Shown here: in pieces, positions 382 through 54,931 of the stretch | Position numbering within the stretch: the stretch's first letter is position 1 | Layout of the letters: every line of letters starts with the position of its first letter | Position numbers and translations under genes: made by a program | From: Prasinococcaceae sp. CCMP 1430 | Lineage: Eukaryota; Prasinodermophyta; Palmophyllophyceae; Prasinococcales; Prasinococcaceae | Direction of reading: 5' to 3' | Assembly: GCA_013416795.1 (NCBI GenBank) | Contig: RQSC01000026.1 | Span: 703,587 to 767,586 of the forward strand | Length of the DNA stretch: 64,000 nucleotides | The notes under the pieces: generated by a model | Databases searched by the model: none | Seen by the model: the letters and a program-made list of their open reading frames with translations, nothing else | What the model was told of the DNA's origin: nothing

Positions 382-3300
382 ATGTCGTCGCCCTCGTTCT
401 CTCCGACGGCGAGTGCAGCGGCACGCCGGCGAAGTACGCGCTCGCGCTCGTTCATCATGGGCGGTGGGGCGAAGGCACGCACCATCTTCGCCCCGAAAGC
501 GCGTACCTTCAAGTCCAGCACCTTCGCCTTCATCACCGAGGTGTTCGCGTTGCGGCACACGATCTCGGCTAGGATTCTGCCGCAGCTGACTTTGGCGCTG
601 ATTATGGGCTTTGTGGCCAACTCTGCCAAGATCCGCTTCTGCGAGAGCGAGCACGGGCAGATTGAGGACGCGTCGCAGTGCTGGATAGCGTTCGACGACA
701 GCGCGCACTTGAGCGCGGGCATCATCCTGGGCCTCCTTCTGGTGTTCCGCACGTCGTTAGCATACGACCGATACTATGACGGCAAGGCGGCCCTCGGGCA
801 GATCTACAACGGGATCCGCAACCTCAACGTGGCCGTCGTCGCCTTCATGCGGCTGCCACGCGAGGACGAGGAAAACTACTCGCCGAACTCGATCGATGCG
901 CGCCGCGCACAGCTCTCGAAGGACCGTGTGAACATCCTGCGGCTGTCGAACATCATGTTTGCGTTCATGCGCCAGGCGACGCGCGAGCACCGCCACGGCT
1001 ACTCAGACACGGGACCGGTGGAGGACGAAGAGCTTCTCACCAAGGACCGCGCAGGCAAGCCGAGCCTTCCCAGTCTGTGGAACAGCGGCGCCGAACGTGT
1101 TCGCTATTCGAGGATCGACTTCAACAACCGCGCCAACGTGGTCGCCGCGGAGATCTGCTATATCGCCGAAAGCCATCGCCGCATGGGGCACATCTCGGAG
1201 CGCGCGTGCCTGGATATCTACCACGAGCTCGAGCTCACGCTCGCCGCTTTCAAGGAGATCGAGCGCATCGTCACAACGCCGATTCCCTATCAGTACTTGC
1301 ACATGATCAACGTCATCCTCTTCACCTACGTCTTCACCACGCCGTTCGTATTTACGGTGTCGTTCAAGCACGCCACGCCCATCGCGTCGTTCATGATTGC
1401 GCTCGGGTATTATGGCGTCAACGCTATCGGGCGCTGCATGGAGGATCCGTTCAACTGGGACGAGCCAAACCACGATCTGACGTCCATTGGCTGGCGCATG
1501 TCCAAAGAGAACATGAAGCTACACGAGATGGCCGATGTCATGGAAAAGGACATGATGTTGCAGGCAATGCCGAAGCAGGGGGAGGCCGGCCGCGCTAAGC
1601 AGGTGTTCAAGATGGCCGGCGCGTTGCGCGCGGCTGCCGCCAAGGAGAGTGTTGGCAGAGGCATGCCGGCAGCGGCCGGCGGCAATGCTATCCTCGCGGC
1701 CGTCGCACAAATGAATGCTCAGAACGAGGCAGACGAGGAGGAGGACGACGACGACCCCGTGGAGGTTGCCGTGGGACAGCAATTTGGCGAGGGCAGATTC
1801 GCCTTCTTCACCGAACTGTGGGTATGGGACAACACCGTGTGGCCATCGCTGCTGCCGCAGGTCGTTCTCGCAGCCCTTGTTGGCGGCGCTGCGCAGTTCG
1901 CCAAGACGCGCCTGTGCGAGGACGGGGGCGAGGAGGTGTACGAGGCCGAGGATTGCTTGATTTGCTTCGACAAGCACGCGCACGATCTGGTGGGTATGGC
2001 CATCGGCTTTCTCATGGTTTTCCGGGTGAACATGTCGTACGAGCGCTACTACGAGGGCAAGGAGGTCGTGGGTAACCTGTACGAGGGCATCCGTAACCTC
2101 AATGTGGCCTTCGCGGCCTTCATGCGCGTGCCAGAGCCTGGAGAGCTGGACTACAAAGCCGAAGTGACCGATGAGTACCGACAGGCGCTCTCTGAGGACC
2201 GCCTTGAGGTGTTTCGCCTGTCCAACCTCCTGTATGCCTTTATTCGCCAAGCCGTGCGAGAGCAGCGCAAGGGCTACCCGGGCGTGGGCCCCGTCTCGGA
2301 CGAGGAAATTGTCACTCGCGACCGCCGTGGCAAGCCTAGCGTGCCACTGCTCATGCGTGACGAGGAGCGCTACGAGTATCTCGCCTTCGGCGCCAAAAAT
2401 CGCCCCAATATTCTGGTTGCGCGCATCCAGTCCATCGTGGAGCACCACCGTCGCGTTGGCCACATCTGTGAGCGCGCGGCCTTTGAGATGTACCACCAGA
2501 GCGAGGAGGTGCTGAGCGCCTATCGCGCGGCCGAGCGCATCGCCATGACGCCGATTCCGTACATCTACCTCCATGCGGTCCAGTTCCTGCTCTTCTTCTT
2601 CATCTTCTCCTCAGGCTTCATGTTTTCGTACACCTTCAAGTGGATCACGCCACTGCCTTGCGTCATCCTGTCGATGGGGTTCTACGGCCTCAACGAGATC
2701 GGCCGCGCGCTCCAGGATCCCTTTTCGTGGGAGGAGCCCATGCACGACCTCAGCTCGATTGGCTGGCGCGTTTACCGCGAGAATCTTGCCCTTCACCAAT
2801 GGATCGACGGGCTGGAGAAGTCTGGCAAGCGCGCTAACAGTGCGCGCAATACGCGCCTGTACGAGGTACTCACTAACGCCATGGAGTCCCACGATGCCGA
2901 TCAGGGGGGCGACGGCGCTGCGGAGTCTGCAAGCGTGCCGAAGCGCTCGCGCCGCGCGTCAGTGAGCAACACGGAGCGAAGCGCCGACGAGAGACGCCGA
3001 CCGTCGTTGATTGCGGCCAGACTCGACGTGCCCATTATTACCGACGAGGCCGCACACTCGCTGTCTTTTGTCACAGCTGTGTTCAAGTGGAAACACACCG
3101 TCTTACAAAAGCTCGTGCCGCACATGGTCTTGGCGACCATTCTGGCACTCCTGGCGCACTTCCTGAAGTTGCAGGTGTGCGATGAAGATGCGAAGTACGA
3201 CACTGACTGTTGGATCACGCTGTCATCGTCGGCACATAAGGTGATCGTTGGTGTCATCGCCTTCCTTCTTGTGTTCCGGACCAATATCGCATACTACCGC

Positions 3301-6300
3301 TACTACGAGGGGAAGAAGTTCCAGGGGGCACTCCTTAATGCTGTGCGCAATGTCAACGTCGCGGTGGTCTCCTTCGTGCGCGCACCGCGCGAGGGCGAAT
3401 ACGGATACGAGAGCCGCAAGAGGGTGCGCGAAGAGCTACAGCGTGCGCTCAGTCGCGACCGCATCGAGCTGCGTCGCCTGTCCAACGTGCTCTTCGCCTT
3501 CATCCGCCAGGCCATCCGCGAGCAGCGCAACGGCTATCCGGACGAGCAGGAGGTGACCGACGATGAGCTCATCCGCAACGACAAGATGGGCAAGCCCAGC
3601 CTCGCCCATCTGCTCACCGAAGACGAGAAGGCGCTGTACACGAGCATTGACTACAACAACCGCCCAAACGTCGTGGTGGCCGAGATGCAGACCATCATTG
3701 AGAAGCACCGCCGCCTTGGCAATGTGTCGGAGCGCGGCGCCTTCGACGTATATCACGACCTCGAGGGCGCGCTCGTAGCGTTCAAGAACTGTGAGCGCAT
3801 CGTCTCCACAAAGATGCCCTATCAGTACATGCACATGCTCAACTTCCTCCTATTCCTCTTCGCGTTCACGACGCCTTTGGTCTACTCGGCCAACTACCAG
3901 TGGCTCGTGCCCTTGCCGGTGCTCATCACCGTGATTGCATTCTATGGTATCGCGGAGATTGGCTACGCCATCGAGGAGCCGTTCGACTGGAAGGAGCCCA
4001 GCCACGACATGACTGTCGCCGGCCTGCGCTCGTACCATGAGACCCTGCAGGTGCACGAGGTGGGTGATGTCGCCCCACGCACCGAGCCCGTCCTTGGCGA
4101 CTTCGACGTCGCGATCGCCAATGCGTCGAACGCGCAGGCTCCCACGGGCGAGAGTGCCAAGACGCACCTGCTGAAGACGCAGCGCAGCCGTGGCTCGTTC
4201 TCGATGGCGTCGGGTGATGACCTCCTCAACATGTACAGTGACGTTCCCGTTGATATCAACCACTCGACGTTGGGCTTCATCGTCGAGCTCTTTTCGATCC
4301 GTCACACTGTGTGGTCCCGCGTGATCGGGCAGGTCATTGCCGCAGGCATCGTTGGCATGCTGGCGCAATTGGCCAAGATTCACGTGTGCGGTGACGACGT
4401 CAAGACGACGACTGACTGCGATGTCACTTTCGAACCCGAGGCGCACGGCGTCGTGGGCGCGGTGCTCGGCTTTATGCTCGTGTTTCGTACCAATCTGGCG
4501 TACGAACGCTTTTACGAAGGCAAGCAGAGCGTGGGGCAGCTGCACATCGCGCTGCGCAACCTCAACATCGGCGTAATCGCCTTCGTCCGCCCGCCGACTA
4601 AGGGCGAGGCCGCATACGAGGAAGGCCCCGCGCGCTCCCGCCTTGCGCAGGAGCTGCGCGAGAAGCGCTCGGAGATGCTGCGCCTCACGCACATCCTTTA
4701 CGCCTTCATGCGTCAGGCCGTGCGCGAACAGCACATTGGCTACCCACAGGACCTCCACGTGACTGACAGCGAGTTGCTGACTAACGACAAGTACGGCAAG
4801 CCCAGCCTGAGCTCTCTGCTCACACCCGCTGAGGTCTCATTCTTCGGCAAGGTGCCGTTCCACAACCGTCCCAATGTGGTCGTCACCATGCTGCAGAAGG
4901 AGGTGGAGCTCGTCCGCCGCATGCCGCACGTACTCTGCGATCGTGGCGCGTTTGACCTGTACAGTGAGTGCGAGCTGGTTTTGGACGCCTTCAAGAGCTG
5001 CGAGCGCGTGGTGTCCACGCCCATCCCTTACCAGTACCTGCACATGGTCAACTTTGTGACCTTCTGCTTCGTCTTCAGCGTTCCTTTCACCTTCTCGTAC
5101 TCGTGGAAGTGGCTCACGCCCGCCCCAGCCATGGCCTTGGCGCTGACGTACTACGGCATCGGCAAAATCGGCGAGTCGATCGAGCGGCCGTTCGACTGGA
5201 CGGTGCCCAACCACGATATGACCGGCCTCGGCTGGCGCATCTATCGCGAGTGCACGCAGCTTCACAAGCGTTTCAACAAGCGCGAGGAGATGGAGCTCAA
5301 GGCGAGCGACTCGGCGCAAGCGCTGCGCCCGGTCGAGCTCGAGTGGACCGCGGCCACCGCCCGAGTGGGGAAGGTGGGATCGACCCGCGCGGGCATGGAT
5401 CTGGCGCATGGCCGCCGCGCCTCGCTCGTCGCGCAGGGTGTTGACATCGACATGGTCTACCTCACGCCATGGCCGCTGCACAACTACACCTTTCTCACGG
5501 AGCTTTTCACAAAGCAAGACACCGTCATCAGCAAGATCGTGCCGCAGATGGCCGCTGGGGGCATCGTGGGGTTGTTCGCGCAGTACGTGAAGATGGCCTT
5601 CTGCGGCGACGACGTGGAGACGGACCGTGAATGCTGGATCACCTTTGGCAACGAGGCGCACACAATCGCAGGCTCCATCCTGGGCTTCCTGCTCGTGTTC
5701 CGCGTCAACCTGGCGTACACCAAGTTCTACGAGGCCAAGGAGGCGCTCGGCCTGGTCTACGACGGCCTTCGCAACGTGATGGTGGCGATTTCGTCCTTCA
5801 TGCGCGAGTCGTCGAAGGCCGAGCGCGGCTTTCGCGAGCACACGCCCGCGCAGCTCGCCCAGCTGCGCCTGGACCTCATCGAGCTGCTACGGCTGACCAA
5901 CCTGCTGTTCGCCTTCATCCGCCAGGCCGTGCGCGAGCAGCGACACGGGTACCCGCGCAAGCCCTTCGTGTCGGACTTGGATCTGCTCGACGCCGACAAG
6001 TTCGGCTCGCCGTGCGTGCCCGATCTGCTGACTCCCCAGGAGCGCGCCTTCTTCAAGAACGTGGACTACAACAACCGGCCCAACCTCGTCATGGCCAAGA
6101 TCCAGATGCTCGTCGAGCGCAACCGGAGGCTGGGTTTCATCTACGATAAATCGGCCTTCGACGTCTACCACGAGTGCGAGACGGTCCTGGGCGCCTTCAA
6201 GATCTGCGAGAAGATCACCACCACGCCGGTGCCCTACCAATACCTGCACATGCTCAATTTCCTGCTGTTCTTCTTCGTGTACACGAGCCCCTTCGTTTTC

Positions 6301-6642
6301 TCGGCGAGCTTCAAGTACATGACGCCCCTGCCGGCCGTCATCGTCGCCATGGGCTTTTACGGCATCGCCGAGATCGGCAACGTCATCGAGGAGAGCTTCG
6401 ACTGGAAGGAGCCAAGTCATGACCTCACAGGCCTGGGCCGTCGCATCATGAAGGAGAACAAGCTCATCCTGGGCATCCGCGATGTGCCCGCCAACACCGT
6501 CGCCAAGGCCGCCCGTGCTGCCGCTGGCGGGCCCGTCACCGAGGCCTTCTCGCCCACCGCCGCCGCCGCCCTCGGCGCCTCGCACGCAGCCGACGCCGTC
6601 ATTGAGATCGGCGATGGGCTCGAGATCGAGCCCGCGTGCTGA
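382..6642 (+). CDS. Five-domain (tandem pentad) bestrophin-like anion channel
   Basis: Intronless 2,086-residue membrane protein made of five homologous bestrophin/RFP-TM (UPF0187) domains of about 330 residues, at residues ~48-383, 473-806, 894-1227, 1297-1630 and 1702-2027. Each repeat has the same order: a first membrane helix; a Cys pair about 8-15 residues apart; the family signature FRxNxxYxRYYEGK with the hydrophobic helix before it that lines the pore neck in known bestrophins; RNLNVAxxAFxR; a long cytosolic helical block with FIRQAxREQxxGYP; PIPYQYLHM followed by a membrane helix; and a closing PFxWxxPxHD. Linkers are 65-90 residues and charged, one being strongly acidic. Family knowledge: bestrophins pass Cl-/HCO3- and assemble as pentamers. 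Inference: one chain may form the whole channel. The start is the first in-frame ATG (382); 457 is an alternative. No rhodopsin domain and no obvious plastid signal is seen. Confidence 0.9.
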   Translation: MSSPSFSPTASAAARRRSTRSRSFIMGGGAKARTIFAPKARTFKSSTFAFITEVFALRHTISARILPQLTLALIMGFVANSAKIRFCESEHGQIEDASQCWIAFDDSAHLSAGIILGLLLVFRTSLAYDRYYDGKAALGQIYNGIRNLNVAVVAFMRLPREDEENYSPNSIDARRAQLSKDRVNILRLSNIMFAFMRQATREHRHGYSDTGPVEDEELLTKDRAGKPSLPSLWNSGAERVRYSRIDFNNRANVVAAEICYIAESHRRMGHISERACLDIYHELELTLAAFKEIERIVTTPIPYQYLHMINVILFTYVFTTPFVFTVSFKHATPIASFMIALGYYGVNAIGRCMEDPFNWDEPNHDLTSIGWRMSKENMKLHEMADVMEKDMMLQAMPKQGEAGRAKQVFKMAGALRAAAAKESVGRGMPAAAGGNAILAAVAQMNAQNEADEEEDDDDPVEVAVGQQFGEGRFAFFTELWVWDNTVWPSLLPQVVLAALVGGAAQFAKTRLCEDGGEEVYEAEDCLICFDKHAHDLVGMAIGFLMVFRVNMSYERYYEGKEVVGNLYEGIRNLNVAFAAFMRVPEPGELDYKAEVTDEYRQALSEDRLEVFRLSNLLYAFIRQAVREQRKGYPGVGPVSDEEIVTRDRRGKPSVPLLMRDEERYEYLAFGAKNRPNILVARIQSIVEHHRRVGHICERAAFEMYHQSEEVLSAYRAAERIAMTPIPYIYLHAVQFLLFFFIFSSGFMFSYTFKWITPLPCVILSMGFYGLNEIGRALQDPFSWEEPMHDLSSIGWRVYRENLALHQWIDGLEKSGKRANSARNTRLYEVLTNAMESHDADQGGDGAAESASVPKRSRRASVSNTERSADERRRPSLIAARLDVPIITDEAAHSLSFVTAVFKWKHTVLQKLVPHMVLATILALLAHFLKLQVCDEDAKYDTDCWITLSSSAHKVIVGVIAFLLVFRTNIAYYRYYEGKKFQGALLNAVRNVNVAVVSFVRAPREGEYGYESRKRVREELQRALSRDRIELRRLSNVLFAFIRQAIREQRNGYPDEQEVTDDELIRNDKMGKPSLAHLLTEDEKALYTSIDYNNRPNVVVAEMQTIIEKHRRLGNVSERGAFDVYHDLEGALVAFKNCERIVSTKMPYQYMHMLNFLLFLFAFTTPLVYSANYQWLVPLPVLITVIAFYGIAEIGYAIEEPFDWKEPSHDMTVAGLRSYHETLQVHEVGDVAPRTEPVLGDFDVAIANASNAQAPTGESAKTHLLKTQRSRGSFSMASGDDLLNMYSDVPVDINHSTLGFIVELFSIRHTVWSRVIGQVIAAGIVGMLAQLAKIHVCGDDVKTTTDCDVTFEPEAHGVVGAVLGFMLVFRTNLAYERFYEGKQSVGQLHIALRNLNIGVIAFVRPPTKGEAAYEEGPARSRLAQELREKRSEMLRLTHILYAFMRQAVREQHIGYPQDLHVTDSELLTNDKYGKPSLSSLLTPAEVSFFGKVPFHNRPNVVVTMLQKEVELVRRMPHVLCDRGAFDLYSECELVLDAFKSCERVVSTPIPYQYLHMVNFVTFCFVFSVPFTFSYSWKWLTPAPAMALALTYYGIGKIGESIERPFDWTVPNHDMTGLGWRIYRECTQLHKRFNKREEMELKASDSAQALRPVELEWTAATARVGKVGSTRAGMDLAHGRRASLVAQGVDIDMVYLTPWPLHNYTFLTELFTKQDTVISKIVPQMAAGGIVGLFAQYVKMAFCGDDVETDRECWITFGNEAHTIAGSILGFLLVFRVNLAYTKFYEAKEALGLVYDGLRNVMVAISSFMRESSKAERGFREHTPAQLAQLRLDLIELLRLTNLLFAFIRQAVREQRHGYPRKPFVSDLDLLDADKFGSPCVPDLLTPQERAFFKNVDYNNRPNLVMAKIQMLVERNRRLGFIYDKSAFDVYHECETVLGAFKICEKITTTPVPYQYLHMLNFLLFFFVYTSPFVFSASFKYMTPLPAVIVAMGFYGIAEIGNVIEESFDWKEPSHDLTGLGRRIMKENKLILGIRDVPANTVAKAARAAAGGPVTEAFSPTAAAALGASHAADAVIEIGDGLEIEPAC

Positions 6643-6971
6643 GGACCTCAGGTGTGGTTTGGGTTCACTTGGTGAAGGAATTGGGTCGTTCTTGCCTCAA
6701 AATGATAATATTTGTCGATGATGGTGCTAGGGTTTGTGGACTCGTTCATTTTGACGTCGCATTGCCCGCTGGCAGCGTCGTCGGGTGCGCGCACGCGCGC
6801 ACAGCACGCTGCGGCGCGGTGGTGCGCGCTCGCGCCACACGCGGCGGCACGCGCGCTCCCGCGCGCGAGCGGCGCCACCGCGCGCGAGCGGGCGGAGACG
6901 GCGGACGCCAGGGAACGTGGCGCCGCGCGTACGATGCCGTCGGAGACTGGTTGGTCGAGCACCCCGCCCCC
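6643..6971. other. Intergenic region before the glutaredoxin gene
   Basis: Starts AT-richer (6655-6735), then becomes CG-repeat-like (6780-6900). The glutaredoxin frame stays open through it and contains an in-frame ATG at 6702, but the translation is low-complexity Arg/Ala/Gly, so it is read as promoter and leader. A longer N-terminal targeting sequence starting at 6702 remains possible. Confidence 0.4.
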
Positions 6972-7391
6972 ATGTTCCTCGTACACAATCCGTTGAAGGA
7001 CTACCTGCTGCGACTGCGCGCGGGCCAGTATGACAAAGCGGAGGGTGCGAAGGCGCTCGATGCAGCGCTCGAGAGCGACCTTGTCGTCTTGTTCTCTCAG
7101 ACGTACTGTCCTTTCAGCAAGGCAGTCAAGCGCGAGCTCGACGCGCGCAGCGTGCCGTACACCACCGTGGAGGTGGACGTCGTGCCCGAGGGCAACATGT
7201 TGGTGAACGAGCTGGGGATTCGGACGGGCCGCACCTCCATCCCGCACGTCTTCATCGGTGGTGACAGCGTGGGCGGCTGCAATGACAGCGGCGTCGGTGG
7301 CACTGGTCCGGGTTTCAGGCAGCGCGTGAAGGAGGACGGGTGGCTGGAAGGCGAGCTGAGGCGCGCGAAGGCTGCTCGCGACGCAGCGTAG
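6972..7391 (+). CDS. Glutaredoxin-like protein with a CPFS active site
   Basis: About 139 residues from the ATG at 6972, a usual length for a single-domain glutaredoxin. The thioredoxin-like fold is recognisable: VVLFSQTYCPFS (active site), a central strand with VEVDVVPEG, then TSIPHVFIGG (cis-proline loop) and GGCND, the usual glutathione-binding end. The second active-site Cys is replaced by Ser, so only a monothiol mechanism is available. Family role: glutathione-dependent reduction of disulfides or mixed disulfides, or Fe-S cluster handling. The CPFS sequence differs from the CGFS class that carries Fe-S clusters, so the role is uncertain. A start at 6702 would add 90 low-complexity residues. 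Confidence 0.8.
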   Translation: MFLVHNPLKDYLLRLRAGQYDKAEGAKALDAALESDLVVLFSQTYCPFSKAVKRELDARSVPYTTVEVDVVPEGNMLVNELGIRTGRTSIPHVFIGGDSVGGCNDSGVGGTGPGFRQRVKEDGWLEGELRRAKAARDAA

Positions 7392-9501: not shown

Positions 9502-11280
9502 ATGGCGCGCCCACACGCGCCCCGGGCCCTCAGGCCGCGCCGAATGCTGTTGGCTGCGGTGTTCAGCTGCGCCGCTGCGTGCGCGGCGCTTGGGGGGGCA
9601 GTGGAGTGCCTCGCCGCGGTCGAGGCCCCTGCGCCTGGCCCGCTGCCTGGGCGAGCGAGAGTGCCTTCCTCCTCTGCAGGCGTGCCGCTGCCACCGCGGC
9701 GGACGACGGCCGGGGGCGCCGCCGCCCCGGGCACCGGCGACGGCGAAGGCCCCCTGCGGATACTTGTCGCGACCAGCTCCATGCCAAGTCACGTGTTCTT
9801 GGCGGTGAAGCTCGCGCGGGCGCTGGCCGACGCCGGTCACACCGTCGAGCTGAGCGCGCCCGCCGGCAAGCCCGTCGCGTCCGCCATGCGCGAGCTCGCA
9901 AGCGCGCCCTCAAAGTCGATTTCTGTGGTCGCCATTGGCAAGGCGAGCAGCACAAAGCCGGCATCGGAGCGGCACGTGCAGAATGCGGCGACGTACGCGA
10001 CCTTCTGGAGCAGCCTGTTCAAGCCGCTGAAGGTCGCGGGGCAGCTCGCCACAATGAACGCCGAGCTGCAGGAGGAGCTGTACCAGCCACTGCTCGAACG
10101 GCTCACAGACCCAGCGACGCGCCCCGACGTGGTTGTGGGGACGCACTCGACACTCTCGGCTGCCACCGACGCGGCTGAGCGAGCCGGTGTGCCGGCGCTC
10201 ATGCTGCAGGGCTTCCCTTTTGACCCTGCTCACGGCAACGGCTTCCGCAATGGGACGTGGCGCGTCCCTCGCGCGCTGTCTGTGCTGCCGCACACCGGCA
10301 TGTACCCTGCCAAGCCCCCTCCTGGCGTCGCCGGGCTCATGCAACTCTTTTGGTTGCGACTTGACGCCGCCCTATTCGAGTTTTGGATGCGCCATCAGGG
10401 CGCGGTGGAAGTCACCTCCAAGCTGCGCCAAGAGCGCGGGCTGGATCCGATAGTCGACAGTGCGAACAGCGGCTCGTTCCAAAAGGTAGGCATGCCGTCG
10501 GGCAACGTGCCGGTCATTGCACTTGGTGGAGAGCCCTTTCTGGCCGGCGAATACCCAGTGCCACCGCAGTACACGCTGGTGGGCGCGCTCGACGACCGGC
10601 GCGCGGCGGTGGGGATCAGGGACGACCTCGGGGACGACCTCGCGGACTGGCTGATGTCGGCCAAGAAGTCGTCGGGGAGCAAGGTGGTCCTAGCCGCATT
10701 TGGCACGGGCACTGAGCTCAGCGCAGCCGAAGGCGCAGCGCTCTCACGGGGCCTCGCAGAGCTCGGCGAGCGGCACGGGGTGCGCACGCTCCTGAGCCTG
10801 CGCGCGTCGGAACAAAAATTCCACTTCGCAGCGCTCGAGGCAGCTCTGGGCCCTCCATCGTATCTAAGTGAGGCTGACGCCGACGGCGCCGTGACTGCCG
10901 AGTTCCTCGGCGGCGCAGTGCGCATGCAACCTCGCGTGCCGCAGCGTGCGGTGCTGCTCTCAGGATTTACCGACTTGTTCCTCTCTCACTGCGGGTTCGG
11001 ATCTACTTCTGAGAGCTTCACCGCTGGCGTCCCTCTCCTCGCGTACCCGGCTGGGCTCGATCAGTGGTGGAACGCACAGCGCTCTCGTGAGGCCGGTGTC
11101 GCCCGCTTTGCGCCGACGGGCTTGAAGGGCCTGGCTGAGGCGGTGCGAGCGGCGCTCGACGACGACTCTCTGCGCGAGGGCGCACTGCGGGCATCCGAGA
11201 GCCTTGCGCGTCAACGCGGCCCCGCAAAGGCCGTTGAGGCGGTGGAGAACGTTGCGAGGGCGTACCGCGCCGAAGCTTGA
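9502..11280 (+). CDS. UDP-glycosyltransferase (GT-B fold, UGT-like)
   Basis: 592 residues. It transfers a sugar from a nucleotide sugar to a small acceptor or lipid. A hydrophobic segment near the N-terminus (MLLAAVFSCAAACAALGG) suggests a signal peptide or membrane anchor. The N-terminal Rossmann-like acceptor half begins ILVATSSMPSHVFLAVKLA. The C-terminal donor-binding half carries VVLAAFGTGTELS and the UGT signature region FLSHCGFGSTSESF followed by AGVPLLAYPAGLDQ, with the His-Cys-Gly and Asp-Gln positions kept. The ATG at 9502 is chosen because the open frame further upstream has no ATG. The acceptor is unknown. TGTAA occurs just after the stop. Confidence 0.88.
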   Translation: MARPHAPRALRPRRMLLAAVFSCAAACAALGGAVECLAAVEAPAPGPLPGRARVPSSSAGVPLPPRRTTAGGAAAPGTGDGEGPLRILVATSSMPSHVFLAVKLARALADAGHTVELSAPAGKPVASAMRELASAPSKSISVVAIGKASSTKPASERHVQNAATYATFWSSLFKPLKVAGQLATMNAELQEELYQPLLERLTDPATRPDVVVGTHSTLSAATDAAERAGVPALMLQGFPFDPAHGNGFRNGTWRVPRALSVLPHTGMYPAKPPPGVAGLMQLFWLRLDAALFEFWMRHQGAVEVTSKLRQERGLDPIVDSANSGSFQKVGMPSGNVPVIALGGEPFLAGEYPVPPQYTLVGALDDRRAAVGIRDDLGDDLADWLMSAKKSSGSKVVLAAFGTGTELSAAEGAALSRGLAELGERHGVRTLLSLRASEQKFHFAALEAALGPPSYLSEADADGAVTAEFLGGAVRMQPRVPQRAVLLSGFTDLFLSHCGFGSTSESFTAGVPLLAYPAGLDQWWNAQRSREAGVARFAPTGLKGLAEAVRAALDDDSLREGALRASESLARQRGPAKAVEAVENVARAYRAEA

Positions 11281-14681: not shown

Positions 14682-17600
14682 TCACGCCACCTGGTTCTCA
14701 GCGAGCGCGGCGCGCGTAGCGCGGCCCTTGCTGCCGCGCGTCGCACGGCGCGCAGGGGCTGGCGATGGCTCGGCGGGAGTCGGTTCGTTCTCGTCGACGT
14801 CCACCACCTCCTCATCGCTCTCGACAATCTCGCCTTCGTCTTCGCCCTCACTCTCCACCTCGCTGTCGCTCTCACTCTCCTCGCTCTCGCTTTCTTCCCA
14901 CGGCTGGCGCGCCTTGGCCTTACCCTTGCCGCCCGCCCCGCCACGCCCGCTCCCGCTGCTGCTGCGAGAGCTGCGTGTCGACGTCGATGGCTTCGTTCCG
15001 TCAAGGTTGCCAATCGCCGCCTCGAGCGACTCGAGCGCCTCCTCAGCATGCGCGGCCATGTCGGCCTCGTGGTCGTCCTGGGCGCCCTCAGAAGCAGTTG
15101 CGTCGCCCTCAAACGCCTTCGCGAGTGCAGCCTGCGCCGCTGCGACCTCTTTGGCGATGATCTTGTCCGCCCCCACGGCGCCCGCAGCGGCCTCCAGGGC
15201 AGCGGCGAGCCCAGCGGGCAGTGCGACGCCGGGCGTGGTGGTCGCCGCTGCGGCACTGAGCGCGCGCGCGCATTGCTGGCGGTGCGCCTTGGTGGCAGCG
15301 GTCGCAGGCACGCACGCCACCTCTCGCGCGAGCGCCAGCGCAAGGCGCGCGCCGGAGGCATTCGTGGTGCCCTCGCCGTCGGCGCCCGCGTCGGCGCGCA
15401 CGATGCTCGCAGCAAAGCGCGCCACTTGCGTTGCGTGGCGACTACCTCCAGCCGCTGCCGCGCGCACGGCCGGCAGGAAGGCATCGGCAGCAACGTCGGC
15501 GTGGCCCGCAGAAGCGCGGGCGAAGGCGTCGAAGAAGACCGCGAGGCACTGGCGCAGGCGCGGCAGCTCGGCGGTACCGGCGTCGAAGTAGAGAAGCACC
15601 AGGCCTCCGAGCACCTTGTGCGGGCTGAGCTCCTGCGGAATGCGCCCCCAGAGGAGCAGCTTCGCGAAGCCCTCAGCGGTCACCGCCTGCAGCTCGCCCG
15701 CATGCCCCACGGCGTCGCCCGCAGGCAGGTCGTCCTCGTCGCCCTCCTCATCTTCGATGGACGACGCAAGGCCGGCAGCGAGCTCCTCCAGGAGCGCGCG
15801 GCGGCACTCCGGGAGCGCTGCGTCCGCGTCCGCCTCGGATGCTTGTGCGAGCAGGCGATCCAGCGTCGCGGGCTGGAAGAGCAGGCACATGTCCATGAGG
15901 GGGCGCGCGGCGGCAGCACGCACACAGCGCGACTCGTCGCGCTGCGCCGCGAGCAGAGCCGGCGCGTGCGACGCCCAGGCATCGGTCACACCGAGCACGA
16001 GCGCGGCACCAAGAGCGCGCGCGCCCGCGGCGCGACAGAGCGGTTCATCCCGAGCGGCCGCAGTGGCGGCGAAGCGCGACACAGCCGACGCAAGCTGTGG
16101 CGGCAGCGAGCGCATCGAGTTGGGCGACATGCACGACGCGGCAAGCTCCACCAGCCACGCGCAGCGCAGCCACACCCACGCGGGGATGTCTGCTATGGCA
16201 TCGGCGTCCTCCTCGGCCTCCGGATAAAAGCCGTGCGCGGAGGAGAGGGCCTCCACTGCGTTGACGATCATCGCGCACTGTTCAGCGCCGCCGCCGAGGT
16301 GCTTGGCGGCGCCAGCGACGGCGAGGTCGAGCGTGCGCTGTTCCTCAGAGCAGCGCAGCTCGCCAGCGGGCCCACCGGCTGCCGGTGGCTCGCACGCGAG
16401 CATGTCGCGCACCAGTTCGGCGCCAGCGCGCATGCAGGTCGCATCGCTCACGTCTGCGGCGGGCGTGAGCGCCAGCAGTTGCGCCGCCTGGAAGCGGGCG
16501 CCGGCAGCGGCGCACGCGCGCGCGCAACCGAAAATGTCTGCGGTTGCCGAGGGCATGACGCCCTCGAGCGCCTCAAGCAGGCGCTCTGCAGCTGCCGCAG
16601 CGACGGCCTGCACGCCGCCGCCACCGCCCGCGCGCGCAGCGTCGGAGCCGCGCTCATGGCCACCGTTGTGCAGCGCGAGCGTAACCACGCGCCAGTAGAG
16701 CGCCGCTTCGGGCGTGATGGGCGCAGCGCCTTCGGCGAGCTCGCCGTTGGCCACGGCGGCGCATGCAGCGGCGAGGCCGCCCTCGGCTTTGGACGCGTCA
16801 GCCACGGCATTCACATCGATGACGCCCGACTCGTAGAGCTCGGTCACGACGGTTGCGGCCACGTCTGTGTGCGTCTCGACGTCGAGCATGGCGAGCAGCT
16901 TCAGCACGTCGCCGCTGCAGTGGTCGGCCAGCCACGTCGTCTTGAGCAGCTCGGCGGCCGCCTTCCGCGTGGCGGGCGCACGATCGCCCAGGCCGTGGCG
17001 CAGGACGGCGGCACGCTGCGCGATCGAGAGCGCGCGCGGGGTGGCTTTGGACGCCAGCACCATGAAGGCCATGCGGCGCACGTCGTCGGCCACGTCGCGC
17101 ACGCGTTCGACCACCGCGCCGAGCGTGGAGTCGGCGACGGCGATCGACGCGAGGACAGCCTTGCGCACGTCCTTGTTCTTGTCGGTGCGCAGCAGGCGGC
17201 GGAACTCCGTAGTGACGTCGTCCTCCGAGAAGTCGCCCGAGTCGCCGGGCTCCTGCAGGCGAGCGAGCGCGCGCACCGCCTGCGCGCGCACGGGCGGGTG
17301 GCGGTCACGCAGGCGTCCGAGCATCGCCTCGCGCACGTCGTCGTAGAGCTCGTCGGAGAGCTCGGCCTCCTCATCGAGCGAGTTCATGACCTGCGAGATG
17401 AGCTGCGCCGCGCGGAAGCGCACGGCCTTGTCCTTGGCCGCAGCCACGGAGACCAGGAATGCGAGGAAGGTCTCGGCGAAGTCGTCGGCGTCCTCCTCCT
17501 CGCCGGCCTCGCGGCGCGCCGCGAGCGCGCCGCACAGGCGCACGACGCGCTCGGCGCCCGGGTCGCGCGCGCCGATGACGAGCACGAACTTGAGCGACTC

Positions 17601-17752
17601 GACGAGCTCCTCGGTGAACGCAGCCGCGCCGCCCTCGGTCGCCGCGCGCCGCGCCGCGAGCATGCCCACGTACTTGCGGTGGCCCGCCATGGAGCGCTTC
17701 GCCTCGTTGAACACGCGCGCCACCGGCGTCGTGCCGGCGGCCCCGGCCGCGG
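14682..17752 (-). CDS. NCAPG: Condensin complex subunit CAP-G (5' end lost in assembly gap)
   Basis: HEAT-repeat regulatory subunit of condensin, which compacts mitotic chromosomes; CAP-G binds DNA together with the kleisin CAP-H. About 1,023 residues are present, an expected length for the family minus only a short N-terminus. The first visible residues match the family start: VFNEAKRSMAGHRKYV, LVESLKFVLVIGARDP, AERVVRLCGAL, then KAVRFRAAQLISQVM, RLRDRHPPVRAQAVRALARL, DVRKAVLASIAV, VADDVRRMAFMVLASK and ALSIAQRAAVLRHGL. A long Ala-rich HEAT array follows. The tail is acidic and Ser/Glu-rich (EESESEESESDSEVESEGED), then basic Arg/Ala. The start codon is in or next to the gap at 17753. Confidence 0.93.
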
Positions 17753-18469
17753 NNNNNNNNNNNNNNNNNNNNNNNNNNNNNNNNNNNNNNNNNNNNNNNN
17801 NNNNNNNNNNNNNNNNNNNNNNNNNNNNNNNNNNNNNNNNNNNNNNNNNNNNNNNNNNNNNNNNNNNNNNNNNNNNNNNNNNNNNNNNNNNNNNNNNNNN
17901 NNNNNNNNNNNNNNNNNNNNNNNNNNNNNNNNNNNNNNNNNNNNNNNNNNNNNNNNNNNNNNNNNNNNNNNNNNNNNNNNNNNNNNNNNNNNNNNNNNNN
18001 NNNNNNNNNNNNNNNNNNNNNNNNNNNNNNNNNNNNNNNNNNNNNNNNNNNNNNNNNNNNNNNNNNNNNNNNNNNNNNNNNNNNNNNNNNNNNNNNNNNN
18101 NNNNNNNNNNNNNNNNNNNNNNNNNNNNNNNNNNNNNNNNNNNNNNNNNNNNNNNNNNNNNNNNNNNNNNNNNNNNNNNNNNNNNNNNNNNNNNNNNNNN
18201 NNNNNNNNNNNNNNNNNNNNNNNNNNNNNNNNNNNNNNNNNNNNNNNNNNNNNNNNNNNNNNNNNNNNNNNNNNNNNNNNNNNNNNNNNNNNNNNNNNNN
18301 NNNNNNNNNNNNNNNNNNNNNNNNNNNNNNNNNNNNNNNNNNNNNNNNNNNNNNNNNNNNNNNNNNNNNNNNNNNNNNNNNNNNNNNNNNNNNNNNNNNN
18401 NNNNNNNNNNNNNNNNNNNNNNNNNNNNNNNNNNNNNNNNNNNNNNNNNNNNNNNNNNNGGGGGACGCC
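17753..18469. other. Assembly gap (717 N)
   Basis: Run of N that hides the first codons of CAP-G and part of the divergent promoter shared with the H+-ATPase gene. Predicted frames crossing it are not meaningful. Confidence 1.
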
Positions 18470-19241: not shown

Positions 19242-22041
19242 CTCCGTCTGGCCGAGTTCGGCCGAAACGCCATCGAGGAAAAGGCGACGCCCAAGTGGAA
19301 ACTGCTGGTGGGCCACTTCTGGGGGCCCATGCCCTGCATGATCTGGGCGGCCATCCTCATCGAGGCCATCATCCTCGACTGGTGCGTGGCATGGGAGGCG
19401 CGCGCGCCCGCGCGGGACCTCTGAGCGTATCCCACCTCCGCGCGCCGCACGATGAAGGGTGAGAGCCTCCCTCCGTCGCCGAGCTGACGCTCGCGCGCAC
19501 GCGCGCCCACACGCGCACATGCACACTCCGTCGCCTTCCCTCGCGCGCGCTCGCGCGCCCGCGCGCTCGCTCAGGGCCAACTTCTGGGTCCTCCTCTCCC
19601 TGCAGCTGATCAACGGCCTGGTGGGCTTCCACGAGGACTCCAAGGCGGGCGACGCAGTGGCGGCGCTGAAGGCGTCGCTCAAGCCCAAGGCGATGGTCAA
19701 GCGCGACGGTGTGTGGGCGAACATCGACGCGGGCGACGTGGTCCCCGGCGACCGCGTGGCGCTCAACGCGGGCGCGGCGGTGCCAGCCGACGCTCGCGTG
19801 TGCGCGGGCGAGCCCGTGGAGATCGACCAGGCCGCGCTCACGGGCGAGTCGCTGCCGGTGACCTTCCACGAGGGCGAGGTGGCAAAGATGGGCTCGACGG
19901 TCGTGCGCGGCGAGCAGGAGGCCATCGTGGCCGCCACGGGCCGCAACACCTTCTTCGGCAAGACGGCCGCGATGATCGCCTCGGTGCAGGACGAGGCGCA
20001 CTTCCAGAAGATCCTCATGGCAATCACGCGCTTCCTGCTCATTGTGTCGGTGGTACTGGTGACCATCGCGGTGGCCTTCCTGCTCTCTAAGAAGGAGTCC
20101 TTCCTCAAGAGCCTCGCCTTCGGCGTGGTGCTCCTGGTGGCGTCCATTCCGATCGCCATGCAGGTCGTGTGCACGACGACGATGGCGCTCGGCAGCCGCA
20201 AGCTGGCGGAGCAGAAGGCCATCGTGGCGCGCCTCAGCTCGATCGAGCAGCTCGCCGGGATGAACATCCTGTGCTCGGACAAAACGGGCACGCTCACGCT
20301 CAACAAGATGGTGCTGCAGGATTTCGTGCCTTACGACAGCGAGTGCACCCGCGAGAGCCTGCTGCGCGACGCTGCGCTGGCCGCCAAGTGGAAGGAGCCC
20401 CCCAAGGACGCGCTGGACACGCTCGTGCTCAACGCGCAGGACCTCACGCCGCTCGACGCGTGGACGCAGACCGACTACACGCCCTTCGACCCCACGCGCA
20501 AGCGCACCGAGGCCAAGCTGGTGGGCCCGAACGGCAAGGCGTTCACGGTCATCAAGGGCGCGCCCAACGTGGTGATGGGCCTGTGCTCGGAGTCGACGCG
20601 CGCGCCCATCCAGGTGGCCTTCGACGACAAGGTGCTCGAGCTGGCCAACCGCGGCATCCGCTCGCTGGCCGTCGCGCGCGAGGACGAGGGCGACACCCGG
20701 GGCATGCGCATGCTTGGCCTGCTCACCTTCCTCGACCCGCCGCGCCCGGATACCAAGCGCACCATCGAGCGCGCCATCGAGCAGGGCTCGCAGGTGAAGA
20801 TGATCACCGGCGACCACGCGGCCATTGCCAAAGAGACCTGCCGCCAGCTGGGCATGGGCGACGAGATCCTGCTGCCCGACGGGCTGCCCAACTTTGACCC
20901 CACCGGCGAGATTCCGGACACGCTCGGCGAGGACTACGGCGATCTCATCGAGGGCTGCGACGGCTTTGCACAGGTCTTCCCCGAGCACAAGTTCCTCATC
21001 GTCGAGGCGCTACGCCAGAAGGGCTACAGCTGTGGCATGACGGGTGACGGCGTCAACGACGCGCCGGCCCTCAACAAGGCCGATGTTGGCATCGCCGTGC
21101 AGGGCGCCACCGACGCCGCGCGCGCAGCGGCCGACCTCATTCTCACCGCGCCTGGGCTGAGCGTCATCGTCGATGCCATCGTGCTGTCACGCGCCATCTT
21201 CCAGCGCATGAAGAACTACGTGATCTACCGCGTGGCGTGCACCATTCAGCTGCTGAGCTTCTTCTTCCTGGCGGTGCTCTTCATCCAGCCCAAGAAGTAC
21301 AACCCGGACTTCGAAGAGGCGTACTTCAACCTGCCCGTCATGGCACTCGTTCTCATCACCATCCTCAACGATGGGACGATCATCTCGATCGCCTACGACC
21401 ACGTGGTGCCCTCGCCGCGCCCCGAGAGGTGGAACCTGCCGGTACTCTTCGCGGTGGCCACTTGGCTGGGCTTCGTGGCCGTCGCGTCATCCATGCTGCT
21501 CCTGCACTGGTCGCTCGACTCGTACAACGAGGACTCCTTCCTCGCTTCCCTTGGCATCCAGCCTGTGCCCTACAAGCACGTGATGACGCTCGTCTACCTC
21601 AAGATCTCGCTCTCCGACTTCATGACGGTCTTCACCGCGCGCACGCAGAGCTACTTCTTCACCCGCGCGCCGGGCAAGCTCCTCTTCGGCGCGGCGATGG
21701 TCGCCACGGGTGCCTCGACGGTTCTCTCCTTGCGCTGGCCGTTCGGCGACACGATGGAGTCGCTCTCGCCGGGCCTTGCGTTCTTCGTGTGGGTGTACTG
21801 CACCGTCTGGTTCCTCATTCAGGACGTCGCCAAGGTAGCCATTTACAAGGTGCTCTTCTACTACGACGTGAGCGGCATCCGCACCGAGGCCGAGAAGTGC
21901 AAGGAGCGCGTGCGCAACACCTCCCCCGAGGCGCGCATGAACGCGCTCGAGGGCGAGGTTGCGGACATGCGCAGGATGATGGCTGCTGTGCGCGTCTCCG
22001 ACTACAAGGCCATCGAGGTCGGTGCCAACTCGGGCATGTGA
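18794..22041 (+). CDS. Plasma-membrane-type H+-transporting P-type ATPase (P3A), three exons
   Basis: Pumps protons out of the cytosol using ATP. Exons 18794-18976, 19242-19381 and 19575-22041 give 929 residues; both introns are GT-AG and join the plant-like order LAEFGRNAIEEK and AIILDW|ANFWVLL. Motifs: actuator TGES at ~197, phosphorylation site CSDKTGTLTLNK with Asp at ~343, KGAPNVV in the nucleotide domain, TGDGVNDAPALNKADVGIAV at ~597. About ten membrane helices are expected; the last six follow residue 650. The N-terminal 60 residues are acidic and cytosolic. The C-terminus is short, with a coiled segment (ARMNALEGEVADMRRMM), and lacks the plant 14-3-3-binding YTV end, so regulation must differ. 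The first intron ends in a (CA)n run that serves as its 3' splice region. Confidence 0.95.
19207..19240. repeat. (CA)n microsatellite at the 3' end of ATPase intron 1
   Basis: About 17 CA units ending directly in the AG acceptor used for exon 2, in place of a usual pyrimidine tract. Confidence 0.9.
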
Positions 22042-30281: not shown

Positions 30282-31030
30282 NNNNNNNNNNNNNNNNNNN
30301 NNNNNNNNNNNNNNNNNNNNNNNNNNNNNNNNNNNNNNNNNNNNNNNNNNNNNNNNNNNNNNNNNNNNNNNNNNNNNNNNNNNNNNNNNNNNNNNNNNNN
30401 NNNNNNNNNNNNNNNNNNNNNNNNNNNNNNNNNNNNNNNNNNNNNNNNNNNNNNNNNNNNNNNNNNNNNNNNNNNNNNNNNNNNNNNNNNNNNNNNNNNN
30501 NNNNNNNNNNNNNNNNNNNNNNNNNNNNNNNNNNNNNNNNNNNNNNNNNNNNNNNNNNNNNNNNNNNNNNNNNNNNNNNNNNNNNNNNNNNNNNNNNNNN
30601 NNNNNNNNNNNNNNNNNNNNNNNNNNNNNNNNNNNNNNNNNNNNNNNNNNNNNNNNNNNNNNNNNNNNNNNNNNNNNNNNNNNNNNNNNNNNNNNNNNNN
30701 NNNNNNNNNNNNNNNNNNNNNNNNNNNNNNNNNNNNNNNNNNNNNNNNNNNNNNNNNNNNNNNNNNNNNNNNNNNNNNNNNNNNNNNNNNNNNNNNNNNN
30801 NNNNNNNNNNNNNNNNNNNNNNNNNNNNNNNNNNNNNNNNNNNNNNNNNNNNNNNNNNNNNNNNNNNNNNNNNNNNNNNNNNNNNNNNNNNNNNNNNNNN
30901 NNNNNNNNNNNNNNNNNNNNNNNNNNNNNNNNNNNNNNNNNNNNNNNNNNNNNNNNNNNNNNNNNNNNNNNNNNNNNNNNNNNNNNNNNNNNNNNNNNNN
31001 NNNNNNNNNNNNNNNNNNNNNNNNNNNNNN
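30282..31030. other. Assembly gap (749 N)
   Basis: Hides the 5' ends of the TFIIH p34 gene (minus) and of the unknown plus-strand gene that follows, and so their divergent promoter. Confidence 1.
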
Positions 31031-50707: not shown

Positions 50708-53700
50708 TCACATCAGGTCATTGACCGTGTCCATCTCCAGCTTGGGCGCCGGAGCCAGCTTGGGCTCCGACCTTGCGCGGCCCCCAGCCCCACTTCCAGC
50801 GAGCTTGAACGTGCGCGTCGGAAGCTCCGAGCCTTGCTCGTCCGCCAGGGCGTCCGCCTCGAGCACGAGGCGGCGTATCTCGCGGCGCTCGACCTCCTGC
50901 GCGCGCTCCGCCTCGCGCCGTGCCGCCACCAAGCTGGTGGCTGTGGGAATAGCAAGCAGTCCAGTCTTGCTTTTCCCCTTGATCAGGCACCTGAAATTCA
51001 TCGTGCTCGGCGCCGTCGCGTCGGACGCATCGCCGCGGGTCTGCGATCCCGCTGGCGCGGTCGGCCGCGTGGGACCGCCCTCCACGCCCGAAGCCATGCC
51101 GGCGATCGAGCTGGTGGAGGCAGTGGCTGCGTCCGCCATGCCCAACATGCCTTTGCCGAGGAAGCTGGCCATCTCGGCCTCAAATGCTTCCACATCCTCT
51201 GCGCTCGCCTGAGGGCGGCTGCGAAGGCGGGCCCCGCGCTCCTCGCGCTCCTCAAGCTCCCCATCGGAGCTGCTGCTGCCGTCGCTGCTGCTGTAGCCAT
51301 CCATCTCGGCGTCCTCCGCGCCGCTGCCGTCCTCTTCCTCGCTCATGTCTTCGGCATCGCTCTCACCCTCATCGCTCGATCCGTCTTCAGCTTCCTGCGC
51401 AAACAAAAGGTCCATATTGTCGTCGTCGTCGGCATCGACCTCCTCGACGTCGGCATCCGCACGCGGGGCTTCCTCAGCGTCGAGCGCTTGCGCTGCGGCG
51501 GTGGCTTCCTCGAGGTTGACGAAGCGCACGAGCCGCGGGCGCAGGCGCTCGAAGACATCCTGCACGGCAAACTCAAGCTCAAAGGGCAGCTCATCCACGG
51601 GTAGCGGCTGCTCGGCTGGGTCCTCAGTAGCTGCACCTCCGTCCGCGTCGGCGCCGGAGGCCGTCAGCTCAGCCTGCGATGAGGATCGCGGTGCCCTCTG
51701 TTGCTGTCCGTCTTCCGCGGTCACTTCCTCATTCGCCCGTGCCTTGGCAAGCACATACTGTTGAAAGCGAACGATAAATGCGTCAACCGTCGTCCTGCCC
51801 TTGCGTGTCTTGTCGAGAGTCTCGCCGCACGCCCCCAAGAGGCGCAGGCACAGCCTCGCACGACCCCAATCCGTGGGAGGATCGCTGGTGGCTGCGTGCT
51901 TAGCGGCGCGCGCAGCGACTGCCATGGCCTCCTTCGTGGTGTCAACGCCCGGGTTCGCAGCGGATGCTGCGGCGGCGGCGGCCGCCGCCGCTGCGGCCGA
52001 CGCGTGTCCCCAGGTGAGCAGCATGTTGAGCGTAGCGAAGATGAGGGGGGCTGGTACAACTTTGACGTTGTGCAGCTCTGCAAGCAGACCAGCCAGCGCG
52101 AGCTTGCGCTGCGCCAGCCGCGCGTCGTTGTCTTCCACCGCCTGGCGCAGCTCCTCCAGCACGCAGTCGACCACGCCGACGTGCAGCTCGGGCCGGTACA
52201 GCCGCAGCGTGGCCAGTGCCACTGCTGCCGCAGGCGCCGAGTGCGACCGTTGAACGACAGCCTCGAGCACGCACTCTTCCACGAGCTCGCCGCAGCGCGC
52301 CCAAGGCAAGCGTCGCACCTGCTTGACAATGCGTGGCACCGCGCGCTTGCCTCTGCCGAGCCCCCCGATGACGAGATCGCGAACGTATAGCTCAAGTGGC
52401 GTGAGTGTCCTCACGCGCGCGACGGCCCGCTCCGGAGGGCGCGTAGCGAGCATTGCGGATTCGATGAGCGATGTGTGCCGCGACTCCAAGTTCCTCGCCG
52501 ATGCGAGACGCTTGAGCTTGTCAAGGTTTTGTGCCATGCGCTCGGCCGACAGCGGCGTGAGGAGCAGGTAGCGTCCGCACGATTCAAGCAGAGCGCAGAG
52601 CACGTCGATGTTTTGCCCGGACAAATCCCGCAGCAGCGCCTCCATGTGGCGGAGCACGTCAGATGGCGGCACGATGCCAAATTTCGCGAGCTCGCCCATG
52701 TAACGCGCATTCGCGAGGCGGTTCTCAATGCCATGCATGCCATCCACCGATGAGGTCGTGTGCCCCCTCGCCGCACGTCTGCGCGCAAAGTCGTGCTGCA
52801 CCACATCGACCACGTGCATGGCCACTTCGGTGTAGTGCGGCGCGATGGTGGCCACGAGCCGCGCATAGTGTGCAGCGAGGTCGGGTCGGGAGCGCGGCAC
52901 GGCCTCCAGTCGACGCGCCAGGCGCTTGCGACTTGCTTTCGTGCTCATGAGGCAGAATTCGACGGCCTTCTTGTCGACGTCCTCCCGCGTGCTCAGATCC
53001 GAGTCCAGCGTCTCCTCGAACGCGTCCATGCGCACGCACGCTTTGTCAAAGGTCGATGCACCATCATTATTTCCGTCGTCACTCGTGGCTGTTGCCTCGC
53101 CAGCCACGTCCTCGATTGTATTTCCGTCCTTGTCCTGCTCCCCCCCGCTCGGGGCCTTGCCCTTGCGCTCTTCGCCGAGCAGAGCGCCCGGCACGTGCGC
53201 TCGCAGCTCTAGCAGGTCCTGGTAGTAGGCGCGCTCGTATTCGTCGTCGAATGGGCCGAGCCTGTCGTCGCTGATGTCCGCCGCGGTGTGCCGCACGACA
53301 CCCACGGTCCCTTGGACTTGTGCCGCCCCATCGTCTTGCGCGTCCTCCAGCGCTGGCACCGAGCGGCCCAGCACCTCTGCCAGCTTGCCGAGCGAGGACT
53401 GCAGCGCGTCAAACGCCTCACGAACACGCAGGTATTTCTCTCGTTTCTCTTTGGACTGGTCGGCGCTGCCCGCTTTGATGGCGCTGCGCTCGGCGCTGAC
53501 CTCCATTTGGCGCAAGGACCGGTAGGCATTCAGCAGCACCTCCTCCCTCCCATCCATGAACGTGCCGAGGGCGCTCAGCAACACCTGTCGCTGGTCCTCA
53601 CGCACGATCACGAGCTTGCCGAAGAGCCCGTCGCCATCGGCGGCGCCGTCGTCTACGGCTCCAGTCGGGGCAGCTGAAACACCGTGTGTGCCGTCCCCGC

Positions 53701-54725
53701 GCTCGCCACTCTCGCTCTCCACGCTCCCGGCCCCGCACGCAGACTGCGCGGTGCTGTGCGCCTGCGGAGCCCCCGGCGGCGGCGGGGGCCGTTGCGGGAT
53801 ATCGAGGCCCAGGAAGGGCCACTGGCCCTGCTTGGCGAATGCCAGCACTAGAGCGAGTGCTTCGGCGGCCTCCTCTCCGTCCCAGGGCTCGCGCGGCTTG
53901 AGGAGGCCGCGAACAAGCCCAACGAGCCCCGACAGCGACGGCTCGACGCCCGAAGCGACTAGCTCACATAGCAGCCGCAGCGCCGACCTGCGGCGCGCCA
54001 TCGTCGCATCAGCGGCATCATCCGATTGACCGGCCGCGATCTTTTGCAGTCTAGAGGCCACCGCAGCGCCAAACCCCTCGTAGCGGCGGTGCAGGAGCCA
54101 GCACGCCCTCGCTGCCGACATAATGTCCGTGGATTTCAGCTTGGCATCGCACACCGCCACGGCGGCCTCGGGCACGTATTTCGACAAGTTGACCTTGGCG
54201 AGGTCCACGAGGGTCGCCGCCTCGGTGTCCTCGCTGATCTTGCTGAGCTTCTTTAGCGCGCCCGTGCATCGCTTAATGGAAGAGTCCAGGGTCTTGAGGA
54301 AGGCCTCCGAGGGCCGCTCGGGGGAGAGGTTCGCCGCGCGTGCCTCGCTGCGCACAGCAGCCGCCGTGACCGCGGCGGCGTAGCGCTCCTCCGCGGCGGC
54401 GCGCTCGGCCGCGGCGCGTTTCGCAGCCTCCTCAGCCTCGCGTCGCGCGGCCTCGAGCGCTTCAGCCTCGGCTTTGGCGCGCGCAGCGGCCTCTTTCTGC
54501 GCTCTTCGCTTGGCCTCCTCCGCCTGCGCGCGAGCTCGATCGGCCGCCGCGACGGCCTCATCAAACGCTGCCCCCTTCTTCCCGCCGCCGCCGCGCCCGC
54601 CGCTGCGCCCTCGCCCGGCCGCTGGAACCCCAGCAGCCCCCGGGCCCCTACCACCTCCCCTGCCTCCCTTCACGCCTCGGCCCTTTCCCCGCCCCCCTCC
54701 GCCCTGGCCGCCGTCGCGGCCCCCA

Positions 54726-54760
<35 letters not shown>

Positions 54761-54931
54761 CGGCTGCCGTTGCTTCTGCCGCAGCGGGCCACCGCCGTCC
54801 GCCCTCCTCGCCTTATCGCCGTCACCCGCGCTCCCGCCGTCTTTCCTCCCGCCTCCGCGGCCGCCCGCGCGCCCCGCGGCGCGCCCGCCGCCTCCGCTGC
54901 TGCCCTCGCCGCCGCCGGGCACGCCGCCCAT
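50708..54931 (-). CDS. UPF2: Nonsense-mediated decay factor UPF2
   Basis: 1,407 residues, intronless, a usual length. UPF2 bridges UPF1 and UPF3 in nonsense-mediated mRNA decay. The N-terminus is Gly-rich with a poly-Gln run of about ten (CTG/CAG repeat on the plus strand at 54724-54757), then a charged coiled coil of Ala/Glu/Arg. First MIF4G domain from ~205 (SSIKRCTGALKKLSKI, LVDLAKVNLSKYVPEA), second from ~550 (YYQDLLELRAHVPG, AVEFCLMSTKASRKRL, HYARLVATIAPHYTEVA), third from ~840 (RIVKQVRRLPWARCGEL, ALATLRLYRPELHVGVVD, CLRLLGACGETL). An acidic linker follows, then the UPF1-binding tail MNFRCLIKGKSKTGLLAIPT and RRLVLEADALADEQ. The start is the first ATG; a GTG directly upstream is ignored. 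Confidence 0.95.
54724..54757. repeat. CTG/CAG repeat coding for poly-Gln in UPF2
   Basis: About ten CTG units (CAG on the coding strand) in the N-terminal low-complexity region of UPF2, a site likely to vary in length between strains. Confidence 0.85.

Follow-up and report, generated by a model that had tools for sequence, protein, structure and literature searches.

Voltage-gated Na+ and Ca2+ channels of the four-domain type carry in one chain as many homologous domains as the ring has subunits, and the positions of that ring are specialised; to our knowledge there is no natural single-chain pentameric channel. A gene of Prasinococcaceae sp. CCMP 1430 raises the question of whether one exists. 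The gene lies at the start of a 64,000-nucleotide stretch (GenBank assembly GCA_013416795.1, contig RQSC01000026.1, positions 703,587 to 767,586 of the forward strand; here called the window) and, according to an earlier note made from the letters of the DNA, encodes five bestrophin domains in one polypeptide, a covalent version of the bestrophin pentamer. Having followed up this proposal computationally, we hold with good confidence that the product is a single-chain pseudo-pentamer closing into an anion channel with fixed subunit order and stoichiometry.

Five domains in one open frame

The open frame runs from ATG to TGA with zero internal stops, and its GC content at codon positions 1/2/3 (0.605/0.403/0.838) gives it the look of coding DNA. 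When the 2086-amino-acid (aa) protein was searched against Pfam-A, PF25539 (Bestrophin_2) was the only family found, in five stretches (561.9 bits against a cut-off of 27 bits, E = 4.2e-169), and no rhodopsin domain was detected; a search of NCBIfam gave no match. The earlier note was thus right to call the protein a bestrophin, but PF01062, the animal bestrophin family that it had named, had no match on the window protein at E <= 0.01, and matches to that family in the same genome are confined to another contig. The five domains themselves served to build the profile that set their borders. D1 to D5 are 41-47% identical in pairs, so that the description of five mutually similar domains in an uninterrupted frame holds, and in models they have the bestrophin subunit fold. 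The statement that each keeps the signature FRxNxxYxRYYEGK was slightly too strong, as the signature is exact in two of the five (D2 and D3) and varied in D1 (FRTSLAYDRYYDGK), D4 (FRTNLAYERFYEGK) and D5 (FRVNLAYTKFYEAK). The gene and its parts are as follows.

382..6642, + strand: gene for the five-domain bestrophin; a single open frame encoding 2086 aa, then a stop
505..1581, + strand: D1, aa 42-400; predicted neck I114/L118/F122, predicted aperture R274, Cys pair C87/C100
1582..1770, + strand: linker 1, 63 aa; little conservation and a low predicted local distance difference test score (pLDDT)
1771..2853, + strand: D2, aa 464-824; predicted neck M539/F543/F547, predicted aperture R698, Cys pair C512/C525
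2854..3027, + strand: linker 2, 58 aa
3028..4098, + strand: D3, aa 883-1239
4099..4239, + strand: linker 3, 47 aa
4240..5319, + strand: D4, aa 1287-1646; predicted neck A1360/F1364/F1368, predicted aperture R1521, Cys pair C1336/C1346
5320..5454, + strand: linker 4, 45 aa; RRAS at bases 5413-5424 (Ser1681), candidate basophilic-kinase site
5455..6525, + strand: D5, aa 1692-2048

The domain copies have diverged at the DNA level (their longer mutual alignments are ~64-78% identical) and the coding sequence holds only two repeated 20-mers, which overlap, arguing against a recent tandem duplication or a misassembly. Moreover, the runs of N in the window (17753-18459, 30282-31030 and 42834) all fall outside the gene, and a separate database cluster, P0001, of 2061 aa and encoded on a 6956-base contig, shares 99% identity with the window protein. 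Collapse or expansion of copies during assembly does not account for the five domains.

The genome assembly (24.5 Mb, 145 contigs) contains one full copy of the gene. A second match, on contig C15 (157284-157520), is a short piece of ~213 bases that matches part of D4 (window 4911-5123) at 97% identity; it sits close to an N and within an unrelated frame, and probably represents a scrap left by the assembly or a minor duplication. Five of the 17 places in the genome that match PF25539 belong to the frame described here, and the other PF25539 loci that were fetched, the C15 piece excepted, resemble D1-D5 weakly and over no more than the length of one domain. The light-harvesting proteins of the organism are, by similarity to PDB entries, like chlorophyll a/b types, as would be likely for an alga of the green lineage.

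Number, order and origin of the domains

A first protein search, covering lengths of ~1147-3650 aa, returned 28 homologues of 1886-2692 aa. Once profile hits split by insertions had been joined, five domains could be counted in 25 of them (P0014 among these, without the start of D1), and the other three are compatible with five: P0002 carries an insertion, P0020 has five places in a broken frame with D2, D3 and D5 incomplete, and P0021 ends inside D4. None of the 28 has six full domains. Five-domain bestrophins therefore do occur in other algae or protists, as had been anticipated. For two of the relatives, P0003 and P0004, the sequence is an MMETSP transcript with the label type:complete, indicating that a single mRNA covers all five domains in those organisms. 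An alignment of the window protein with 25 of the 28 homologues (alignment A1; P0001, P0020 and P0021 left out) comprises 11 groups at 60% identity, with a lowest pairwise identity of 28%. Judged from these sequences, the array appears to be old and conserved, its number and order having been kept in distant relatives.

Two later searches added shorter matches (P0029, P0030 and P0031-P0036), each of which is most similar to a particular position of the five-domain proteins, with P0031-P0036 ~80-100% identical to one position of known members. We read P0029-P0036 as fragments, or, for P0031-P0036, as fragments or partial gene models; a true one-domain protein may be among P0032 and P0033. No close single-domain relative turned up in the three protein searches, which hardly covered the two-domain size of ~825-1130 aa. 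Scans with two strict patterns for each set gave 47 pattern matches in viral_contigs and 31 in genome_contigs (prokaryotes), of which 0 in either set were confirmed by tblastn; with so few patterns, this argues only weakly that relatives are absent there.

A maximum-likelihood tree was built with 80 domains, drawn from 16 of the 29 proteins, and three distant paralogues. Each of D1-D5 formed one side of a branch (support, D1 to D5: 95/96, 100/95, 98/80, 100/99 and 91/98), and 0 of 200 label shuffles were as clustered as this tree. A second tree (14 of 29 proteins, without the outgroup) again recovered D1, D3 and D4 as single groups but not D2 or D5; the very long D5 branches of P0022 and P0024 lay nearest D2, and D5 was single in 12% of 200 bootstraps. 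Holding D5 together gave a log-likelihood 2.82 higher, with a p-value of 0.62 in the approximately unbiased test, so that the data do not reject a single D5 clade. Nothing in the domain trees points to positions having been homogenised by exchange. Most likely, then, on the evidence of these trees, the array formed once, ahead of the split of these lineages, and D5, judged from P0022-P0028, seems to be its fastest-evolving subunit.

A predicted asymmetric pore in a single chain

A passage of PMC6591409 gives the neck of the bacterial bestrophin KpBest as I62/I66/F70 and its aperture as I180, in contrast to the Arg/Lys predicted for the aperture here. By HMMER alignment, we located the neck as the Phe of FRxN plus the residues 4 and 8 before that Phe, and the aperture as the Arg/Lys of an SER/CDR/YDK motif, with chains 6iv0 and 6iv1 (titled I180A and I180T) marking the aperture residue. 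For D1 to D5 respectively, 29, 28, 28, 28 and 27 domain rows were counted, near relatives included, so that the counts are not independent; the rows dropped were D2, D3 and D5 of P0020, D4 of P0021 and the first, 47-aa piece of P0002 D3.

The domains have a predicted three-layer hydrophobic neck on the second transmembrane helix (TM2), with an outer layer that is small in D3-D5. At this outer layer, V/I/L/M is found in 27, 26, 1, 1 and 4 rows of D1 to D5, and G/A/S in 2, 0, 26, 23 and 19. The middle layer is F in 130 of 140 rows. The inner layer is F in 27, 25, 27, 7 and 19 rows; Y is found in 19 of the 28 D4 rows, and 8 of the 27 D5 rows have H or Y (5 of them H). At the predicted aperture, R occupies 112 of 113 D1-D4 rows, while D5 has K in 20, E in 4 and Q in 3. 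The window protein itself reads, from D1 to D5, I/M/G/A/S at the outer, L/F/F/F/F at the middle and F five times at the inner layer, with R/R/R/R/K at the aperture. By these row counts, the asymmetry of the predicted pore is conserved, at least for the outer neck and the aperture, and such position-specific residues fit the asymmetric pore that the earlier note had envisaged. In the diverged relatives P0022-P0028, the inner neck of D5 is His or Tyr and its aperture residue Glu or Gln.

Outside the pore, the TM1-TM2 loop contains a Cys pair in every one of the 139 domain rows that cover it. Because the loop faces away from the cytosol by bestrophin topology, the pairs suggest disulfides in an oxidising compartment. 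In P0002 (75% identical), the same loop of D3 alone has ~190 additional, Cys-rich residues, as if one of five subunits had acquired its own outer domain.

The linkers are poorly conserved, the frequency of the commonest residue being 0.28-0.35 as against 0.61 in the domains (12 of 26 proteins). An RRxS motif, tested only after being noticed and counted as [RK][RK]x[ST] in the 26 aligned proteins (P0001, P0020 and P0021 not among them), occurs in linker 4 of 20 proteins, compared with 5.0 expected from shuffles. Corresponding values, observed versus shuffled, are 16 versus 9.6 for the N-terminus, 11 versus 4.8 for linker 1, 15 versus 8.4 for linker 2, 7 versus 6.4 for linker 3 and 4 versus 1.6 for the C-terminus; among these segments linker 4 alone stands out. 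Its motif is a candidate regulatory input, possibly under the control of a kinase. Chloroplast targeting, considered for the Ser/Arg-rich N-terminus, was set aside, as several orthologues begin differently.

AlphaFold2 models were made of two overlapping three-domain pieces, and in both the neighbouring domains, each with the expected fold, are predicted to pack rigidly in a fixed arrangement (predicted template modelling scores 0.80 and 0.81). We propose that D1 to D5 of one chain would pack in order, side by side round one axis, with D5 meeting D1, yielding a monomeric, asymmetric anion channel of pentameric type, presumably for Cl-/HCO3- as assigned by family. An even count of membrane helices places the start and end of each domain on the same side, so that disordered linkers of 45-63 aa can join neighbours. 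A Phe ring at the middle neck would act as the gate, together with an outer layer made of bulky residues (V/I) in D1 and D2 but of small ones (G/S/A) in D3-D5; four Arg and one D5 residue (Lys, or Glu or Gln in some relatives) would make the cytosolic aperture an asymmetric basic anion filter; and RRxS, most regular in the linker ahead of D5, may provide the regulatory input. Conduction, selectivity and the membrane in which the protein resides we infer. Taken as a whole, this would probably be a natural single-chain pentameric channel, combining fusion with five differing positions, gate and filter residues that depend on the position, and a regulatory site in a linker on one side only.

Several points weigh against this proposal. 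The models cover three domains each, and the proposed ring would also need contact between D5 and D1. The register of the aperture depends on a weakly aligned stretch and carries modest confidence, and the columns that distinguish positions are weakly enriched in TM2 (4 of the top 10, p 0.015; 5 of the top 20, p 0.051; 6 of the top 30, p 0.087). Finally, scoring in each protein search was limited to the ~8000 candidates with the most words in common, a procedure biased towards long proteins of several domains.

The chain could instead be a polyprotein, cut post-translationally into five bestrophins that assemble as an obligate heteropentamer; the light-harvesting polyproteins of some algae are cut in this way. 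Long, disordered and poorly conserved linkers would suit such processing, and a heteropentamer of the products would likewise be in keeping with fixed order and diverged positions. We nonetheless consider it unlikely, since cut products have no need of five domains in one frame in every relative, the rigid packing of modelled neighbours requires no cutting, and a shared processing-site motif was not noticed in the linkers (no systematic search was made; the sole motif tested, [RK][RK]x[ST], differs between them).

Quite unlikely, too, is a chain whose domains pair with those of other chains or with single-domain bestrophins, thereby linking several pentameric channels. The genome has other, single-domain bestrophin genes whose products could co-assemble, and the linkers are long enough for flexibility, but those bestrophins are very distant from D1-D5, neighbouring domains are in predicted fixed contact, and nothing in such an arrangement would keep the 25 homologues in which every domain is visible at exactly five.

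A ring that closes yet does not conduct, serving as a scaffold, sensor or transporter on the bestrophin fold, might be read from the unusual D5 necks and apertures of some relatives (of 27 rows, 5 have H at the inner neck and 7 have E or Q at the aperture). The Phe ring and the D1-D4 aperture Arg are nevertheless kept as expected for a pore in use, and we regard this explanation as very unlikely. That the five copies are a product of misassembly can virtually be discounted: the C15 piece reveals small flaws in the assembly, but the architecture recurs in other assemblies, in transcripts and in the 99% identical cluster, and the copies are well diverged in their DNA.

Known channels and neighbouring genes

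The window protein differs from each of the known systems that it resembles. KpBest and its mutants (PDB 4wd7, 4wd8, 5x87, 6iv0-6iv4, 6ivj-6ivw and 6jlf), at ~17% identity, have one domain per chain and five identical chains, as opposed to five domains in one chain. The plant thylakoid bestrophin-like channel VCCN1 (PDB 7ek1-7ek3) is likewise a homopentamer of one-domain chains, for which a portion of PMC9076864 describes a Pro/Leu/Phe neck, a Ser aperture and N-terminal regulatory helices; its E195, three residues after the neck Phe, and its Ser aperture have no counterpart here, where the former position is S/N/N/N/N and the predicted aperture R/R/R/R/K. Bestrhodopsin (PDB 7pl9) is also an algal membrane protein of several domains that includes a bestrophin, but it joins one bestrophin domain to rhodopsin domains and has five chains per complex, whereas in the window protein Pfam finds five bestrophin domains and nothing else. 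Animal BEST1 and BEST2 have one domain per chain and are Ca2+-gated, and animal entries gave no sequence match to the window domains in HMMER searches. Voltage-gated Na+ and Ca2+ channels share the design logic, but are four-fold cation channels of an unrelated fold. No multi-bestrophin chain was found in the literature searched (open-licence PMC papers), and the five-bestrophin single-chain architecture seems to be undescribed, bestrhodopsins and single-domain bestrophins being nearest to it.

A closed ring would make separable five pore positions that a homopentamer forces to be equal, each position of neck and aperture being mutable alone. It would be the five-fold counterpart of the fusion behind Na+ and Ca2+ channels, and a second case, in another fold and symmetry, of a fused homo-oligomer letting its positions specialise; here that specialisation can be traced across many relatives. 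Portions of PMC11142338, PMC5742204 and PMC11092101 tie algal bestrophins to the supply of inorganic carbon or CO2, and according to the first of these no BST orthologues were recognised in Ostreococcus, a prasinophyte. An asymmetric bestrophin may thus matter for how algae handle carbon or ions.

Downstream of the gene, the window holds the following neighbours identified by Pfam (6702-62766), with no evident functional tie to it.

6702-7391, + strand: glutaredoxin
9502-11280, + strand: UDP-glycosyltransferase-like
14682-17690, - strand: condensin Cnd3
19519-22041, + strand: P-type ATPase
50708-54931, - strand: MIF4G/Upf2
61333-62766, - strand: transaldolase

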